From: a virus
IMG/VR virus record: IMGVR_UViG_3300037628_000643
Coordinates: 1-64,000 of that record
Length of the DNA stretch: 64,000 nucleotides
Strand: one strand, 5' to 3'
Positions 7,274 through 31,722 of this stretch are shown here, piece by piece. Positions within the stretch are counted from its first letter, which is position 1, and every line of letters starts with the position of its first letter. Both the position numbers and the translations under genes were made by a program. The notes under the pieces were generated by a model. That model was not told the DNA's origin, made no database searches, and was given only the letters and a program-made list of their open reading frames with translations.

Positions 7274-7507
7274 TTATTCCTTCCAGTTTATTACTGTACA
7301 TGACTCAGTTGGTAACGGTACACTAAACCCATATTGCTCCAACCATGAAATGATTTCTTTTCTTACAGAGTCATTTATCACAATGACAGCGAAAAAGTCA
7401 CCGTCATCCACCGCTTGTTTAATAGAATGCTCTACTCGATTTTTTTCAATCGAGAAAATATCATTGGATAGCTTACTTTGGACTCTCGCCTCTTGTGCAT
7501 TAATCAT
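7274..7507 (-). CDS. M-NA-EAR family protein, 77 aa
   Basis: I set the start at 7507 (MINAQEARVQ), where ATGA overlaps the preceding stop and a GAGGAAAAGTT site lies upstream. MINAxEAR, then a helix ending IEKNRVE, then strands with ISWLEQYGFSV match the gene at 8292 (MINAKEAREN ... IRDWLEGLGY). The C-terminal half of 7504 is related. Similar small proteins are common in phages; function unknown. Confidence 0.7.
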   Translation of the reverse strand: MINAQEARVQSKLSNDIFSIEKNRVEHSIKQAVDDGDFFAVIVINDSVRKEIISWLEQYGFSVPLPTESCTVINWKE

Positions 7508-8016
7508 AACTTTTCCTCGCAATCATCAGGCCACGTTATTTTAATGGCGTACCCTTCGTCTTGGTGGTGCATATAACTAAAGCACCTATTGCCAAACTCA
7601 CTAACTGAAACTCCGTACCCGTTCTTGACAAGCTCATCCGTGACCCGCTTGATAACCCATGAGATAGATTTTCTTGAGATAACTCTAGAAGGCTCAGCCC
7701 ATCCACGATACAAAGAATCATAAGTAAGAAATCTCACCTCAGCTATATTACCGCCATCTTTGATTTCTTTATTGATCTTATTGTATGCCTTGTCGATATA
7801 CTCCTTGCATTGCTCCCTTGTTAACTCCCAATCACTTCTAACCTTACACATAGACTTGTTAGCTTCAATCGCAGTTGGTTTTACTGGTAATGATATGATT
7901 GGGATTATTAGCTTCTTTTCTTCTTGCTGGATATTATTCTTATTGTCCTTTCTAAAAAGAAAATACAACCATACTACAGCAAAGGTATATCCCATAATGA
8001 AAGATAGCGTTTCCAT
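7504..8016 (-). CDS. Membrane-anchored M-NA-EAR-like protein, 170 aa
   Basis: Residues 3-21 (TLSFIMGYTFAVVWLYFLF) form an N-terminal anchor. After a basic linker, the C-terminal 105 residues repeat the helix-then-strand layout of the M-NA-EAR proteins beside it (TREQCKEYIDKAYNKI ... ELVKNGYGVSV ... IKITW). It may be a membrane-tethered version of the same domain. Start after AGGAGGAGTT. Confidence 0.6.
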   Translation of the reverse strand: METLSFIMGYTFAVVWLYFLFRKDNKNNIQQEEKKLIIPIISLPVKPTAIEANKSMCKVRSDWELTREQCKEYIDKAYNKINKEIKDGGNIAEVRFLTYDSLYRGWAEPSRVISRKSISWVIKRVTDELVKNGYGVSVSEFGNRCFSYMHHQDEGYAIKITWPDDCEEKL

Positions 8017-13685: not shown

Positions 13686-13720
13686 AATATTTCCGTCTCC
13701 ACATTCATTTAAAAAAAGAG

Positions 13721-13749
13721 ACTATACACGCTTAAACCAGTGTTTGCAA
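13721..13749 (-). promoter_or_regulatory. Early promoter of the left operon
   Basis: Reading leftward: TTGCAA at 13744-13749, a 17-base spacer, TATAGT at 13721-13726, then the first gene. The identical boxes and spacer occur at 28747-28775 before the second minus-strand operon. It fits a strong host sigma70 promoter. Confidence 0.75.
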
Positions 13750-13768
13750 GGGCTACAAAGGATATTTT

Positions 13769-13880
13769 AATAAAAAAGAATAAAAAGGAATTAATTTAAT
13801 TTTAATTAAACGCTTGAAACCCGCATGCTAGAGCCTCAAAACACACAAAAATTAATAAAAAGAATAAAAAGAATAAAAAG
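13769..13880 (+). repeat. Direct AATAAAAAG repeats
   Basis: Exact copies lie at 13779-13787, 13854-13862, 13863-13871 and 13872-13880, the last three being perfectly tandem. A variant with one extra A lies at 13769-13778. Inverted copies occur downstream in the same gap. Confidence 0.75.
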
Positions 13881-13968
13881 TAGCCTAGGAGAGTATAGGG
13901 GGATATGGGGTAGGAAAACTATAGAGACAAGAAAAGACCGGAGAAAGTATCCTTTTTTTCTTTTTATT

Positions 13969-14012
13969 AGAAAGAGAGAGAAGAAGAAGAGAAGAGAGAG
14001 GAGGGAGGAAGG
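13969..14012 (+). repeat. 44-base pure-purine run
   Basis: Every base from 13969 to 14012 is A or G, mostly GA/GAA units, and the flanks remain purine-rich. Such tracts can form triplex or unwind easily. It is part of the origin candidate. Confidence 0.7.
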
Positions 14013-14118
14013 TAGAGAGAGATGCTCTGTAGGGTAGAGACTGTATACTATATACTACTATTATTACTATTACTATTACTATTATTACTATTACTTCTTC
14101 TACTGTCTAACACTGTTC

Positions 14119-14156
14119 GATAAAAAGTACAACTTATACTTTTTATTCTTTTTATT
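14119..14156. repeat. Inverted CTTTTTATT repeats with hairpin
   Basis: CTTTTTATT is present in tandem at 14139-14147 and 14148-14156, and once more at 13960-13968; these are complements of the AATAAAAAG units. ATAAAAAGTA near 14120-14129 pairs with TACTTTTTAT near 14137-14146 to make a 10-bp hairpin, which might also act as a weak terminator. Confidence 0.6.
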
Positions 14157-14248
14157 AACCATTTTGTATAAAAAACAACCAATTTAGCTAAAAAGCAGAT
14201 ATGTGCAAATATGTCAGATAAGCAACAATAAAACCCCTTAGTTAGATA

Positions 14249-14257
14249 TGATATACT
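14249..14257 (+). promoter_or_regulatory. Extended -10 promoter TGATATACT
   Basis: TGA-TATACT lies 52 bases before the ATG of the gene at 14309. There is no good -35, as in the extended -10 promoters of the structural module. It would drive the three rightward genes 14309-15851. Confidence 0.5.
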
Positions 14258-14308
14258 GTAAGCACACTTAGTTATTTTAAAGCACACCTTTATATATGAG
14301 AGATATTT

Positions 14309-15202
14309 ATGATATTTGACACGCAAAAGCAAGCAAACTCTTTTGTTAAAGATCAACTTCACTATTTTGATTCAAAAGAAGATGTTATCAATGAGTACAA
14401 CTTACACTCTTTTGTTTCTAATATCAACCTGTCAGATACAAATATAGAGTACCGACATTGTCATTTTGTGATAGATTTACTGGTGTCAAATCATGGCGTA
14501 GTTAAAGACCGTGACGGAAGTCCCATTATGCCGTTCACTAATGACGGATGCCAGTGGATTAAACTCAAAGATGATAATGGTACGTGGAAAAAAAGAAAAG
14601 TGTCAACATTAATGGTCGGGGCATTCTCCAGCGGAGAGGCGAAGAGATCATCGTATAGATCACCATATAAGGTGAATACTTTATCAAATATCAACTATAG
14701 TTTGACCTTCTCACCCAATACGGTGATAAAAAGATTCGAATTTGAAAGCCAAGATGAGCTTGATGGGCTTTTATTCTCACACGATATTGCAAGCATAGCT
14801 GATGTTATGGAACACTTCAAAATATCCTTTGACGGGTATAAAGCCATGACTGGGCATTATTCGTGCAAAACAGGAGGTAGCGACACAAGTATTGTAACAG
14901 CTGAACATTTATTTAATGGTGTTAGATATAAAGTAAACAATTATGGGCTCATAAAGCAGTATGTTGGTGGAAAATGGATTAAAATAAGAAAACCATTTAT
15001 TAAAAAGGGAAGGCTGATCTTTAGGGTCTTAACAGATAATAGTGTGCGTGAGGTCGGTGTTGCAGCATTAATAGCCAGAGCATTTGGATGTAAACATGGT
15101 CGAATTATAGCGACTTGTATCGACGGAAACCCCTATAACGTGTGTCTTCGTAATTTATATTGGAAAGGATGTGGACACAAGCGATATTTTGACGTAAAAT
15201 AA
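14309..15202 (+). CDS. Tandem degenerate HNH/NUMOD-like DNA-binding protein, 297 aa
   Basis: Two halves resemble phage HNH proteins. VSNHGVVKDRDGSPIMP at about 54-70 leads to KRKVSTLMVGAF; VNNYGLIKQYVGGKWIKI at about 209-226 leads to VAALIARAFGCKHGRIIA and then CIDGNPYNVCLRNLYW. In active HNH enzymes the last motif reads HIDGNxxNNxxxNLxW; here Cys replaces the His, so cleavage is doubtful. The protein may be a domesticated homing endonuclease now used as a DNA-binding regulator, which would fit its place beside the divergent control region. An active enzyme with an unusual site is not excluded. Confidence 0.6.
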   Translation: MIFDTQKQANSFVKDQLHYFDSKEDVINEYNLHSFVSNINLSDTNIEYRHCHFVIDLLVSNHGVVKDRDGSPIMPFTNDGCQWIKLKDDNGTWKKRKVSTLMVGAFSSGEAKRSSYRSPYKVNTLSNINYSLTFSPNTVIKRFEFESQDELDGLLFSHDIASIADVMEHFKISFDGYKAMTGHYSCKTGGSDTSIVTAEHLFNGVRYKVNNYGLIKQYVGGKWIKIRKPFIKKGRLIFRVLTDNSVREVGVAALIARAFGCKHGRIIATCIDGNPYNVCLRNLYWKGCGHKRYFDVK

Positions 15203-23189: not shown

Positions 23190-23256
23190 TTAACATGCTT
23201 TATATGTCACATTAACTATGTTTTTGGCACTTAATATGCCTTATATGGCATATTAA
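23190..23256. repeat. Tandem 26-bp palindrome-like operator elements
   Basis: TTAATATGCC-TTATAT-GGCATATTAA at 23231-23256 is a perfect 10-bp inverted repeat. A degenerate copy with four substitutions lies at 23190-23215. The two start points are 41 bases apart, close to four helix turns. The perfect copy overlaps the stop of the RlaP-like gene. They lie upstream of 22794-23168 in its transcription direction and look like binding sites for a dimeric protein. Confidence 0.55.
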
Positions 23257-24308
23257 CCCCACATAATCTCTTGACAATCCATTAGCACTTTTGTAGCTAG
23301 ATTGACATTTGGCTTCTTTCGAAGATCAGTCTTTTTGTATAAGACTTCACGAATGTATTTATCTTTACTTTCTGCATACTTGATTAGCTCATTATAAGTC
23401 CATGCGCCATTTCTGATGCTTAATAACTCTTCTGCATCTGGTCGCTTGACAATGACTCCATCTCCTTTAAGGATTTCTTCCCCCATTTTTAAAAGGCGAA
23501 CTAAGTGCATTCCGTGCTTGAAATCGACGCCGAACTTTTCTTCAAGCTCTGCTCGCACTGGATTTCGATTTTTCTTCCACTCCCAGTAGCCACGATGACG
23601 CTCTTTGGCAAATTTCCATTCTTCTTCGTTGTATTTGATAATAAACTGAAGCTCGCCTTTTGGCTCCTCATTCTTTAGTTGCTTTATAGAAATATTAAAA
23701 TCCCCATCAACTGTAAGCGCATTTGGATCACCGCCACTAAAGTATGCGCCGAAGATATTTCCTCCAAAATGAACCAGCCTAGTGTTTGATAGATATGACA
23801 TATTGAAGTTGCTATTGAAAGATTTCGCTCCTGTAAAGTTCTGCACAAGCTTAATGTAATTACTTCTTAGTGGAGCCTCAACTGGTTCAGGAGAATTAAT
23901 CCATTTTTTATGTCCCTTAATCCGTTTCAGTTGTGATGATGCATATCCACTAAACGTAAATGCTACCTTTGACGACAGTAAGTCTTCACGATGACTAAGA
24001 AGATAATTAAACGCCTCGTCATTCGTCTGTATCAGAGAGCTATCATCAACCCATAATGACTCAAGGATATTCGGATTGGCGCCAAGATACAAATCCATAA
24101 AATGCGTCAGCTCAAGAACCTTTCCATCCTCTTCATCTGGTAGCGTTATTTCTCGAACATTGTGCCAAGGTGTTAATGCGTACTTTTTTGGCGCACAAAA
24201 GATCCCTCGAATATCAACATCGGATGTCGGAAGGTTGGTTCCATACGCCAATGATCCAGCATAGTGTTTAACTATAATGTTGTTGTCGTTCAATTCATGA
24301 GCTTGCAT
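23253..24308 (-). CDS. RlaP-type nucleotidyltransferase, 351 aa
   Basis: The N-terminus holds the nucleotidyltransferase active site: A-GSLAYGT at 17-24, then SDVDIRGIF at 29-37, where Asp30 and Asp32 would bind metal. This matches the RlaP family (DNA polymerase beta superfamily) known from phages and proposed to act in RNA repair. The rest is helical with several charged segments. The ATG follows GAGAGGGTAGCAAA and overlaps the PTH2-like gene by 19 bases, so both are made together. The RNA substrate is unknown; a tRNA-end function is inferred from the neighbours. Confidence 0.8.
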   Translation of the reverse strand: MQAHELNDNNIIVKHYAGSLAYGTNLPTSDVDIRGIFCAPKKYALTPWHNVREITLPDEEDGKVLELTHFMDLYLGANPNILESLWVDDSSLIQTNDEAFNYLLSHREDLLSSKVAFTFSGYASSQLKRIKGHKKWINSPEPVEAPLRSNYIKLVQNFTGAKSFNSNFNMSYLSNTRLVHFGGNIFGAYFSGGDPNALTVDGDFNISIKQLKNEEPKGELQFIIKYNEEEWKFAKERHRGYWEWKKNRNPVRAELEEKFGVDFKHGMHLVRLLKMGEEILKGDGVIVKRPDAEELLSIRNGAWTYNELIKYAESKDKYIREVLYKKTDLRKKPNVNLATKVLMDCQEIMWG

Positions 24309-24835
24309 TTTGCTACCCTCTCTGCTAGTTCGATTTCGTATTCATTAAGATCGTGAGTGAATGCCGTTCCGCAATAATCTGGATTATCTTTACTGTGCTT
24401 CGCGTGAGCGCTTCTCTCCTTAACAAAATTAAATATCTCCTCTGGAAGAATGACGCCAACATTAGTCAGTGCTCCATTTAGAGCGTCTTCAGTTTCTTTG
24501 AAGCATGCAAAGGGATATTCTCCTCCATAAACCTCAACTCTTTGAAGAAGATCTAAAGTATCATTTAGATCTGAAGAGTATCCGCCATTAACAATAATAG
24601 TAGTCTTATGATTTTTAGCCCAATCGAAAAGCATTTCTTGTTGCGGACTTCTGTTCTGTGTAATCTTATATCCCATACTCTCAATACTTTCAATAGCAAC
24701 GAAATCTGCATATGTCGGCTGGTATTTCAAAAACATTTCAACCGTCGTATGCTGGCTCTGTATCCCTGCTCCTATCCCGCTTATGTACATGTTCTGAAAA
24801 AAATATGCTCTTAATTCACTATTAGTTGAACTCAT
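24290..24835 (-). CDS. Peptidyl-tRNA hydrolase 2-like protein, 181 aa
   Basis: The segment YISGIGAGIQSQHTTVEMF near 17-35 resembles the GKIAAQ-x-x-HA region of PTH2, FDWAKNHKTTIIVNGGYSS near 69-87 is in the place of its central strand and helix, and GALTNVGVILPEEIF near 115-129 resembles its final strand. PTH2 frees tRNA from peptidyl-tRNA. Similar proteins are widespread in phages without assigned function. The match is by pattern, so the family call is moderate. It overlaps the CCA enzyme by 14 bases. Confidence 0.5.
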   Translation of the reverse strand: MSSTNSELRAYFFQNMYISGIGAGIQSQHTTVEMFLKYQPTYADFVAIESIESMGYKITQNRSPQQEMLFDWAKNHKTTIIVNGGYSSDLNDTLDLLQRVEVYGGEYPFACFKETEDALNGALTNVGVILPEEIFNFVKERSAHAKHSKDNPDYCGTAFTHDLNEYEIELAERVAKCKLMN

Positions 24836-26045
24836 TTTCTTTAAACCTCCTTACCTTTTTAATTCGTTCTTGGCGCAATAACTCGCCAAACAATTTGCCG
24901 GAAATCAACCTTGCACCCAAGTTATCGATTGTCTCTTCTTCATTTTCGATTGATGCTAAATACGCACCGCGTAAAAAATTCCTTTGAGGATAACTTTCAA
25001 CCCTTGGCAATCTGCCCATAGCATCACAATGGCAGCAATCAATGAAATCTTGAAGCAACGATTTGTTTGAGTATGCACCTACTCTCTGTAGTAAGTCAAC
25101 TATTTTTTTAGCGCGCATATCCATAATTGCATGCATGCGTGTGTGCTGCTCGCAAACAAGCATTGCTAGTTCACGATAGCTTTTTGGCACAGATAGTCTG
25201 TCACAGAAATCTTTTACAGCAGATAACCCCGCTTGGTCATGACCATAGAGATTTCCTCTTTCGTTGTGACAAATTGGTTTACCAGTATCATGTAGAAGGG
25301 CAGCCCACTTAACCATTGGCGATAATCCGTAATAAGAACATCTCTCCAGAACCATCAATGTATGCGTAAGAACATCTTTTTCGGCATGATGCTCTTTGGG
25401 TTGAGGAATGTTATCGCAAGCCCATAATTCTTTAAACCAAATATGCTCACCTGCTTTGTGTAAAAACTTAAAAAACAAATGAGAATAAGGCTCGCTTAAT
25501 GCCTTCTCGGTCTCTGCCCACACCCTTTCTTTAGTTAGGTATTCCCAGTCACTAGAGTCGATAATCTGACGGCATAAAGACATTGTTTCGGGCGCTACAG
25601 TCCATTCAGGGCCAAAGCGAGCCAAGAACCTTGCTACGCGCAAAACTCTAACTGGGTCTTCTAAAAATGCATCGCTAGTGTGTCTCAGTATTTTATTTTC
25701 GATATCTACCTGACCGTCAAACGGATCAATGATAGTGCCTTCAAAATCCATGGCGATACTGTTGATGGTTAAATCTCTACGCTGTAAATCTTCAATGAGA
25801 GTGACACCTTTTGTCTCTACGGAAAAGCCACCATAGCCATCTCCTGTTTTTCTCTCAACGCGAGCCAAAGCATACTCATCTCCAGTCTGCGGATGAAGGA
25901 AAACCGGAAACTCAGATCCAACCAGCTTGTAGTCCATAAACTCCATCAATTCAACTGAGGAATCTACCACAACATAATCAATGTCTTTTGGCTCGATCCC
26001 CATAATGGAGTCTCTGACATAGCCACCGACTTTGTATTCTTCCAT
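24822..26045 (-). CDS. cca: tRNA nucleotidyltransferase (CCA-adding) with HD domain, 407 aa
   Basis: GGYVRD at 7-12 with DIDYVV (Asp21, Asp23), RRDLTINSIAMD at 89-100 and the following EDPVRVLRVARF region are the class II tRNA nucleotidyltransferase signature. Metal-binding LLHDTGK sits at about 250-256 in an HD domain, as in the E. coli enzyme, whose length (412) is nearly the same. It adds or repairs the 3' CCA of tRNA; the HD domain has phosphatase or phosphodiesterase activity in the E. coli protein. Start after GGAGGAGGATTAGTC. Confidence 0.9.
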   Translation of the reverse strand: MEEYKVGGYVRDSIMGIEPKDIDYVVVDSSVELMEFMDYKLVGSEFPVFLHPQTGDEYALARVERKTGDGYGGFSVETKGVTLIEDLQRRDLTINSIAMDFEGTIIDPFDGQVDIENKILRHTSDAFLEDPVRVLRVARFLARFGPEWTVAPETMSLCRQIIDSSDWEYLTKERVWAETEKALSEPYSHLFFKFLHKAGEHIWFKELWACDNIPQPKEHHAEKDVLTHTLMVLERCSYYGLSPMVKWAALLHDTGKPICHNERGNLYGHDQAGLSAVKDFCDRLSVPKSYRELAMLVCEQHTRMHAIMDMRAKKIVDLLQRVGAYSNKSLLQDFIDCCHCDAMGRLPRVESYPQRNFLRGAYLASIENEEETIDNLGARLISGKLFGELLRQERIKKVRRFKENEFN

Positions 26046-28290: not shown

Positions 28291-28716
28291 CTATTTAAAA
28301 TCACTGGTTATATTAAACGATTTAAAATCGTCATTGTCAAATACTAATTCAACTTCGCACTCTTGCACTTTATCAATTCGAAAGAAAGCTGGTTGCTTGC
28401 TGTATTTATTCGCCCAAGTATCAATTGCAACTGACAGCAAAGTATCGAGCATAGCCGTCTCTTCTTTGCTTATTTTAGTTAGAAAATCATTTGACAACTC
28501 GCCGAATTCTTCCCACGCTTCATCTTCTATGGAGTCAATAATGCTCTCGGCATCGATAAACTCAGATGCAAATACTTCTCCCTTGACTCCGCGATAGATG
28601 GTTAGTGTATTTCCTTTGTAGCCATTATCTATGCAATCACTAATCTCTTGCCACATATCAGCGTTGGCATGAGCAAAGCTATATTCATCATAGGAATAAA
28701 TAAAATCTTCTTCCAT
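28291..28716 (-). CDS. First gene of second early operon, 141 aa
   Basis: Starts MEEDFIYSYD; ribosome site AAAGGAGAAAAAT. LTIYRGVKGEVFASEF at about 38-53 and a helical region with SIEDEAWEEFGE, then TWANKYSKQPAFFRIDKV, match a phage family whose function I do not know. Very acidic. The promoter is 31 bases upstream of the start. Confidence 0.7.
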   Translation of the reverse strand: MEEDFIYSYDEYSFAHANADMWQEISDCIDNGYKGNTLTIYRGVKGEVFASEFIDAESIIDSIEDEAWEEFGELSNDFLTKISKEETAMLDTLLSVAIDTWANKYSKQPAFFRIDKVQECEVELVFDNDDFKSFNITSDFK

Positions 28717-28746
28717 ATTTTTCTCCTTTATTAATTTATGAGTGGC

Positions 28747-28775
28747 ACTATAAATTAAAATATCTTCATTTGCAA
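28747..28775 (-). promoter_or_regulatory. Early promoter of the second operon
   Basis: TTGCAA (28770-28775), 17-base spacer, TATAGT (28747-28752), read leftward. Boxes and spacer length are identical to those at 13721-13749 although the surrounding sequence differs, so both operons are likely switched together. Confidence 0.75.
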
Positions 28776-28794
28776 GTGTATTTTGATATTAATG

Positions 28795-28803
28795 TGCTAT
28801 TAT
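28795..28803 (+). promoter_or_regulatory. Extended -10 promoter TGCTATTAT
   Basis: Located back-to-back with the early promoter; would start a transcript near 28810 with a leader of about 100 bases before the GIY-YIG gene. The leader holds a short hairpin but no tRNA. Confidence 0.45.
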
Positions 28804-28908
28804 CATTTGGTGCGCTAGGTTTAGCGGCTGAATCCTCTATAACTCCTCAGAATTAGGGTTGCGCATTCCATCTTTAATTTAACTTACATCTGAGGCTGAG
28901 GAAATACA

Positions 28909-29841: not shown

Positions 29842-29858
29842 GCTCTTTAGGAGCCCCT

Positions 29859-31358
29859 ATGATTGAACAATCCCCATTACTACGTCAACTTACAATTGAA
29901 GAAATAGAAGCTCAAGAAGTTGAGTTGGCCGAAACAGTCTTCAAAGATAAAAGTGAAGCATTTCTTAAGACTAGAATGTGGATACATACGCATCCTATGG
30001 ATTCAATGAATCAGCTGAAGGTATTATCGAAAGAACACCCAAAGTTTCTTGATATTCTACACGACCCTGAGTTATGGTTGCGCAAAGATCAGATGTTTGA
30101 CTTTGAGGACGGAAAAGATATTCTTCTCTATCTTGCAGGCAGATCAATAGGTAAATCAAAAAAAGCTTCTTTCACAGTAATAAAAGAAGCAATGAGAGAG
30201 AAGCAAAGAATATCTTTGTGGAGTCCAACTTACAAAATGTGCAAGGGCATCAGCTTTGAAGGGGACTCAGGAATACTGGAGACCATGCACCCAGATCTTC
30301 TTAAAAAATGCGAATACAACAAGACATTGCTTCAACTTCGATTTCCTAATGGCAGTCTACTGGAATCGTTCTCAGCTTCTGAGTTTGATAACAGCCGTGG
30401 TAGCCAGAGTAGCCTTGGCCTAGCAGAAGAATTAGCTCAATGGCCTGAAGAAGCATGGAATGCCATGAAAATGACCATTCGTCTCGGCAAAAACCCAAGG
30501 ATCTTAGTTCTTACTACTCCAAGGCCCACAAAATTAATTAAAACTCTTGCGGCAGCGGATAATGTTAAGGTTGTTAAAGGAACTACTTATCAAAATTATT
30601 TCATTACTCCCCAATATGTAAAGCAATTAACAATAGACTTACCAGAAAGAATGATGCGCCAGGAATTACTGGCAGAAGTATTATCTGACAACGTATACGC
30701 GCTGTTCAAAATGTCAGATATTATTGCTAATGACATTAAGCTAGAAGATGTGCCATTCGAGTCAATGATCAGATTCGTCATTGGAGTTGACCCTGCGGTT
30801 TCAACTAACGAAAATTCAGACTTAACTGGTATAGTTGTTGCAGGGCAGGACAAAAACGGAGTTATGTACATTATTGATGACAAGACAATGAAGGGAACCC
30901 CTGAGCAATGGTCTGCAGAAGTAATTCGTCTTTACACCAAATATAATTCATACTCAGCTGATTGCAGGATAGTGGTGGAGAAAAACCAAGGCGGAGATCT
31001 ATTGAAGTCAGTCCTATATACTGCATCAAGATCTATGCTTGACGGCGCTATACCTTCTGTACAATTAGTCCACAGCTATAAAGGCAAAGCACTAAGAGCA
31101 GAGGCTCCAGCAGCAGCAGTGGAACGTGGTGAAGTTAAGTTTGTCTCTGAGAATCTAAAGGAGCTTATCTTCGAAATGACCGAGTGGAACCCAACAGATA
31201 CTAAGCAAGCCTCGCCGAATAGACTTGATTCCGCGATCTTCGCAACTACGGGAATGCTCAAAAGTCCAGCGACAATTATCACATCCTCATACGGTGGGAT
31301 TGATAAAAAAGAATTTGGGACAAAAGATAAAGTCAATAAATACTGCGGCTACAGATAA
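29859..31358 (+). CDS. Terminase large subunit, 499 aa
   Basis: The start at 29859 (MIEQSPLLRQ) follows TTAGGAGCCCCT; 21 open codons upstream lie inside the GIY-YIG gene. Walker A GRSIGKS is at 94-100 and a Walker B-like GLAEELAQW at about 187-195. The RuvC-like nuclease has IGVDPAVS (Asp near 311), IVVEKNQGG near 371 and RLDSAIF near 466. It cuts and pumps DNA into proheads. No small-subunit gene is recognisable nearby. Confidence 0.9.
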   Translation: MIEQSPLLRQLTIEEIEAQEVELAETVFKDKSEAFLKTRMWIHTHPMDSMNQLKVLSKEHPKFLDILHDPELWLRKDQMFDFEDGKDILLYLAGRSIGKSKKASFTVIKEAMREKQRISLWSPTYKMCKGISFEGDSGILETMHPDLLKKCEYNKTLLQLRFPNGSLLESFSASEFDNSRGSQSSLGLAEELAQWPEEAWNAMKMTIRLGKNPRILVLTTPRPTKLIKTLAAADNVKVVKGTTYQNYFITPQYVKQLTIDLPERMMRQELLAEVLSDNVYALFKMSDIIANDIKLEDVPFESMIRFVIGVDPAVSTNENSDLTGIVVAGQDKNGVMYIIDDKTMKGTPEQWSAEVIRLYTKYNSYSADCRIVVEKNQGGDLLKSVLYTASRSMLDGAIPSVQLVHSYKGKALRAEAPAAAVERGEVKFVSENLKELIFEMTEWNPTDTKQASPNRLDSAIFATTGMLKSPATIITSSYGGIDKKEFGTKDKVNKYCGYR

Positions 31359-31359
31359 G

Positions 31360-31368
31360 TGATATAAT
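31360..31368 (+). promoter_or_regulatory. Extended -10 promoter TGATATAAT
   Basis: Perfect TGN-TATAAT one base after the terminase stop codon; the ATG of the next gene is 18 bases downstream. Confidence 0.6.
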
Positions 31369-31386
31369 CCACAAAAGGAGATTATT

Positions 31387-31722
31387 ATGCTAACACTTAG
31401 AAGATTGCCTATCAGTGACGGTCATCCTATGGATTCGGCAGCTATTGATATTTTTTATAATAACGAAGAGATCACACTTGTTTTGGATCAGGTTCAAGAC
31501 AATCTATCTGTGTGGAGAGTCTTTTCTACTGATTGGGGTGACGAGAAATATTATCCCCAAACTATAGCGCTAACATTCAACCAGCCACTTAAGGTGAATA
31601 ACTGGTTAAAAATCTATGGCGCAAGATCAGCTATGAGCGGTGAGGCAGCGATTCACCTTGGCGCACCAAAAGACGCGATTATAAATCGTCGGGATAGAGC
31701 GGATAGGACAAATCGTAAATGA
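31387..31722 (+). CDS. Hypothetical protein between terminase and portal, 111 aa
   Basis: Starts MLTLRRLPIS after AAAAGGAGATTATT. The first 75 residues are beta-like (IDIFYNNEEITLVLDQVQDN), and the tail is basic (INRRDRADRTNRK). It overlaps the portal gene by four bases. Possibly a packaging or portal accessory factor (from position only). Confidence 0.65.
   Translation: MLTLRRLPISDGHPMDSAAIDIFYNNEEITLVLDQVQDNLSVWRVFSTDWGDEKYYPQTIALTFNQPLKVNNWLKIYGARSAMSGEAAIHLGAPKDAIINRRDRADRTNRK

Follow-up and report, generated by a model that had tools for sequence, protein, structure and literature searches.

The window, i.e., the whole stretch of DNA analyzed here, comprises 64,000 nucleotides, positions 1-64,000 of the virus record IMGVR_UViG_3300037628_000643; the complete phage record (G000) has 104,021 bp. 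In this window a gene-free region, element A, separates two divergently oriented genes (Table 1). The most conspicuous component of A is the word AATAAAAAG, which is present in exact form on the plus strand at 13779, 13854, 13863, and 13872 and on the minus strand at 13960, 14139, and 14148. These are 7 exact copies in 623 bp; in 2000 dinucleotide shuffles of the region the mean is 0.07 and the maximum is 2. The original prediction of four direct copies, three of them tandem, one variant and three inverted copies is thus confirmed far beyond what shuffling generates. The same holds for the 44-base pure-purine run and the TAT/TAC repeats which it had listed. The longest purine run in 2000 shuffles of the region was 33 nt, and within the 104-kb record no other purine or pyrimidine run of at least 20 nt exists. 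The TAT/TAC tract proper extends over 14046-14103; on the minus strand it contains a 13-unit TA[AG] run (14055-14093) compared to a shuffled maximum of 7.

Table 1. Features of element A and of its immediate surroundings (positions in the window).
Feature	Position	Strand	Remark
Flanking leftward gene, 278 aa	12849..13685	-	Partial match to PHROG 1972 (unknown function)
Element A, gene-free, between divergent genes	13686..14308	.	
Leftward sigma-70-like promoter candidate TTGCAA-17-TATAGT	13721..13749	-	9/12
Outer left repeat pair: AATAAAAAAG variant (at 13769) and AATAAAAAG	13769..13787	+	
Inner left array: three tandem iteron-like AATAAAAAG repeats	13854..13880	+	0/2000 shuffles reach the observed count
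G-rich/purine-rich stretch (GGAGAGTATAGGGGGATATGGGG...)	13881..13947	+	Match in copy B, likeness in H40/1 and C7
Inverted AATAAAAAG copy within T-rich tract (13953-13969)	13960..13968	-	
44-nt pure-purine run	13969..14012	+	Strongest strand-asymmetric tract of the record
TA-rich core, TAC/TAT trinucleotides	14041..14103	+	Proposed unwinding region
AACACTGTTCGATAAAAAG	14109..14127	+	TGTTCGATAAAAAG in the 104-kb record: here and in copy B only
Perfect 10-bp inverted repeat, hairpin-capable, then T-rich tract	14120..14146	+	z -2.75
Right array: two inverted AATAAAAAG copies	14139..14156	-	
Flanking rightward gene, HNH endonuclease	14309..15202	+	PHROG 959

Two ORFs inside A (13825-14037, plus strand; 14048-14362, minus strand) have no PHROG match, and an Rfam search with the region returned nothing significant. 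The hairpin and the T-run at the right edge of A suggested a small RNA with a terminator; this reading was rejected as the hairpin sequence is not conserved and internal promoter hits are not above chance. Outward promoters had been predicted at both ends of the region. A candidate leftward site is at hand (Table 1), yet overall the promoter-like matches around A, 15 in number, are no more than expected by chance (15.7). A had also been described as the only large gene-free region. It is the largest gap of the window, but 28598-28908 (311 bp) is gene-free as well. This second gap is also divergent, is located between the early and late operons and coincides with the global minimum of the cumulative GC-skew (28726). 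Elsewhere in the window genes for an RlaP-like nucleotidyltransferase and a tRNA nucleotidyltransferase are present (23253-26045); tRNA genes were not detected in the window.

The presumed uniqueness of A did not hold. A second copy of the element, B, is located outside the window at genome positions 69309-69640, in the same orientation as A and with 66-68% identity (blastn E=2e-16). Of the 11 occurrences of AATAAAAAG in the record 10 are inside A or B, TGTTCGATAAAAAG exists only at 14114 and 69522, and the two TA[AG] runs of at least five units which the record contains are distributed one each to A and B, on the same strand. B is positioned upstream of the gene for the DNA primase-polymerase (Prim-Pol). 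Of the two operons that diverge from it, the leftward one encodes a Prim-Pol/PriCT-2/DUF3987 protein, and the rightward one contains a clamp-loader-like gene and a gene for a Holliday-junction resolvase. B is flanked by outward sigma-70 sites, TTGACT-16-TATAAT (11/12) and TTGACT-16-TATTAT (10/12), and A/T-rich arrays immediately precede the -35 region of either site. A comparison of the Prim-Pol sequence with the PDB yielded no match.

HNH endonuclease genes directly follow three elements on the right: the gene at 14309-15202 follows A, the gene at genome positions 69853-70347 follows B, and the gene at 30825-31394 of the related contig G009 follows X', an element of this contig; in phage H188 an annotated HNH gene adjoins the element. 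Homing endonucleases seem to settle beside it. Elsewhere in the record the large subunit of ribonucleotide reductase appears to be split into two ORFs (314 and 535 aa) with about 190 bp between them (L003 2259-5005, i.e., genome 86259-89005), possibly by an intron or intein-like interruption. A NUMOD3-containing homing endonuclease ORF (89488-90135, minus strand) follows shortly downstream.

No close relatives were found with the genes flanking A (P0001, P0002) and the terminase as queries, a direct search of phage DNA with this region as query gave no match, and a scan of genome contigs returned none. The doubled 9-mer in IMG/VR (107 stretches) reflected merely low-complexity coincidences, and KASIA was discarded as a relative, sharing single genes and not gene order. 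Related contigs were identified via capsid and Prim-Pol. Several of them possess a gap orthologous to B that is bordered by orthologous genes and lacks the HNH gene found after B in this phage; in this gap the sequence has diverged and the layout is kept. In G009 two elements are present, X at 7311-7664 and X' at 29847-30283, the latter upstream of an HNH gene resembling the neighbor of A, and all 5 occurrences of AAAAAAGGAG in this contig are within X or X'. Further, element Y (G010) and element Y' (G006) are 72% identical (E=4e-25); they are on separate contigs, and we infer that they belong to one virus. Copies at both positions thus are found in two related phage lineages. G009 joins the ortholog of the last gene of the record (103749-103988) to the early region; therefore, positions 1 and 104021, at which the record ends, probably lie within the genome and are not genome ends.

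Cultured marine phages extend this picture. C7, H40/1, H188, 1.005.O, and VnaS-L3, all Prim-Pol phages, have one element each, in a divergent gap beside Prim-Pol. In the Pseudoalteromonas phages C7 and H40/1 this gap upstream of Prim-Pol comprises 508 and 614 bp, respectively; the features are arranged in the same order, and the sequence is similar in part (Z=9.9 over shuffles for C7 versus Y). The corresponding gap is present in H188, 1.005.O, VnaS-L3, and Vibrio phage pYD21-A. The latter has two copies (71.7% identity, E=4e-53); the second one, at 1283-1649, holds the strongest purine tract of this phage and its skew minimum. The 6 exact copies of ACTTATGATCA that pYD21-A contains (1297, 1310, 1610, 1651, 39349, and 39373) are all located within or at the edge of the two elements. 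The papers on H40/1 and VnaS-L3 do not mention an origin.

The layout which recurs consists of inward-facing repeats, a purine tract and then a TA-rich core. With all 13 elements placed in a common orientation, the TA core comes after the strongest purine tract in 12; in B the score chose the promoter -10 region, not the TA-rich middle. In 9 of the 13 elements the repeat array surpasses every one of 60 shuffles (pYD21-A copy 2 taken in reverse-complement orientation); H40/1 is a marginal case, and Y', H188, and 1.005.O show no significant enrichment. TA[AG] runs of five or more units are absent in the relatives. The repeat word differs among genomes, yet is common to both copies within one record (G000, G009, and pYD21-A), as expected for the binding sites of a phage-specific protein. 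The predicted conservation of the repeats in related phages applies to the layout; the literal 9-mer is phage-specific.

Cumulative GC-skew had been suggested as a check of A, and it does not point to A. The minimum for the whole record is at 28.7 kb. In C7, H40/1, H188, VnaS-L3, pYD21-A, G009, and G010 the cumulative minimum is in or beside the element. Skew minima are also places at which gene direction changes; to disentangle the two, a regression of third-position skew was run with strand and position of the genes as predictors. For G000 the best fit is a switch at 67.7-69 kb, next to B (t about 7.5); at A, i.e., at 13.7 kb, there is none. The plus-strand GC3 skew is -0.087 for the late genes left of B and +0.116 for the genes right of B (permutation p 2e-4). 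The peak of the scan extends broadly over about 57-84 kb, the contrast is one of late versus early/metabolic genes, and the relatives show it weakly or not at all (right arm of G009 -0.032, of G010 +0.018); for these reasons the skew supports B and is not a proof. In the small phages the regression gave no usable signal, with a peak at 29 kb in pYD21-A.

How can these observations be explained? A and B both are located between divergent genes, and B has good outward sigma-70 sites. The region could accordingly be a hub of divergent transcription in which the arrays act either as AT-rich elements upstream of promoters or as operators of a phage regulator that switches the flanking operons, the purine and TA tracts being spacer. 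We consider this unlikely: it leaves unexplained the order of purine tract and TA core in all elements but one as well as the recurrent position beside Prim-Pol, and around A promoter matches are no more frequent than by chance. The simple-sequence character of the region and the HNH genes that follow A, B, and X' on the right might suggest a functionless product of low-complexity slippage or a passenger of the downstream homing endonuclease. This is highly improbable, as relatives retain the element at the position of B without an HNH gene, and layout and position are kept in distant cultured phages. A centromere-like partition site, named in the original prediction along with a replication origin, would fit inverted repeat arrays in a gene-free region. 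It is extremely improbable because neither ParA nor ParB was found: the record has no match to ParB_N or AAA_31 while the controls were positive, and the element is associated with replication genes. The other half of that prediction, an origin-type element, is well supported by the comparisons.

A different division of labor is conceivable, in which A is a control site for titration of the initiator or for handcuffing, as in iteron plasmids or in P4 crr, paired with B as the true origin. The repeats shared by A and B in the same orientation and the missing skew switch at A agree with this, and it is compatible with an origin element as such. On the other hand, A retains the full core and not binding sites alone, and the cumulative skew of pYD21-A reaches its minimum in the copy that is not next to Prim-Pol. 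We regard such a control function as a real possibility, short of being probable.

Taken together, the region probably is one copy of an iteron-type phage replication-origin element. An enriched array of short sites, an adjacent A+T-rich region that melts easily, and a replicon-specific word in all copies (G000, G009, and pYD21-A) were found, as is characteristic of iteron origins. Judged from sequence, the element most likely is a site where copying of the phage DNA starts or is controlled. We favor B as the better candidate for the main bidirectional origin because the third-position GC skew switches at B and not at A; A then would serve as a second origin or as a control site to which the initiator binds. 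That A itself fires appears somewhat doubtful. The original reading identified the type of element correctly and erred in part on its role and on its uniqueness, as there are two copies and the skew points to the other one. We infer the following course of initiator binding, unwinding and firing, and of the choice of the firing copy. The AATAAAAAG arrays, which face inward, would be bound by a phage-specific initiator; the most plausible candidate is the Prim-Pol/PriCT-2/DUF3987 protein whose gene is beside B, or a partner of this protein. Binding would cause unwinding of the adjacent strand-asymmetric purine tract and the TA-rich core, at which Prim-Pol would prime. Tentatively, we propose for marine Prim-Pol phages a two-site origin, i.e., same-oriented coupled elements tens of kb apart which are served by one phage-specific initiator and evolve in step; as part of the same tentative proposal, the two-site arrangement would be that of this phage's lineage and of pYD21-A, with other phages keeping a single element.

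To our knowledge, the origins of most environmental phages are unknown. A phage-specific repeat word, a purine tract and a TA core beside Prim-Pol would constitute a recognizable signature of Prim-Pol phages. pYD21-A with two copies and H40/1 and C7 with one copy each are direct experimental systems, and the coupling of two sites within a genome bears on the sharing of an initiator between them.

Several known origins invite comparison. In the bacterial DnaA-trio unwinding element 5'-TA[AG] triplets are repeated beside an AT-rich stretch, and A and B likewise contain such triplet runs beside an AT-rich stretch. The phage element differs in that it contains no DnaA box (TTATNCACA), the mark of a DnaA-dependent origin, and in that runs of five or more units do not extend to the relatives. 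In phage P4, ori and crr are separated cis elements which share sites for one primase/helicase initiator, the alpha protein with its Toprim-type primase. Two separated cis elements with shared candidate binding sites are what we describe here, with a Prim-Pol instead of a Toprim-type primase. The lambda origin combines repeated initiator sites with an adjacent A+T-rich stretch that has almost all purines on one strand (PMC5043065). Repeated sites, a purine-asymmetric A+T-rich stretch and the proximity of replication genes are common to both. However, the element described here is intergenic, has arrays on both sides of the core, uses words of 9-10 nt rather than 19-bp iterons and occurs in two copies per genome in a Prim-Pol phage; an initiator of the lambda O family (PF04492), as expected for a lambdoid origin, was not found. 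The plasmid pRN1 shares with this phage a Prim-Pol-type replication protein. In the model derived from pRN1, a stem-loop 3' of its gene serves such a protein, and the authors extended this model to bacteriophages (PMC4234260). A stem-loop of this type was rejected for the present phage because the next ORF (65169-65450) overlaps the Prim-Pol stop codon and leaves no room. The pRN1 stem-loop is downstream of the gene and without iterons, whereas the candidate origin in this phage is upstream and equipped with repeat arrays, which predicts iteron-like rather than stem-loop origins for Prim-Pol phages.
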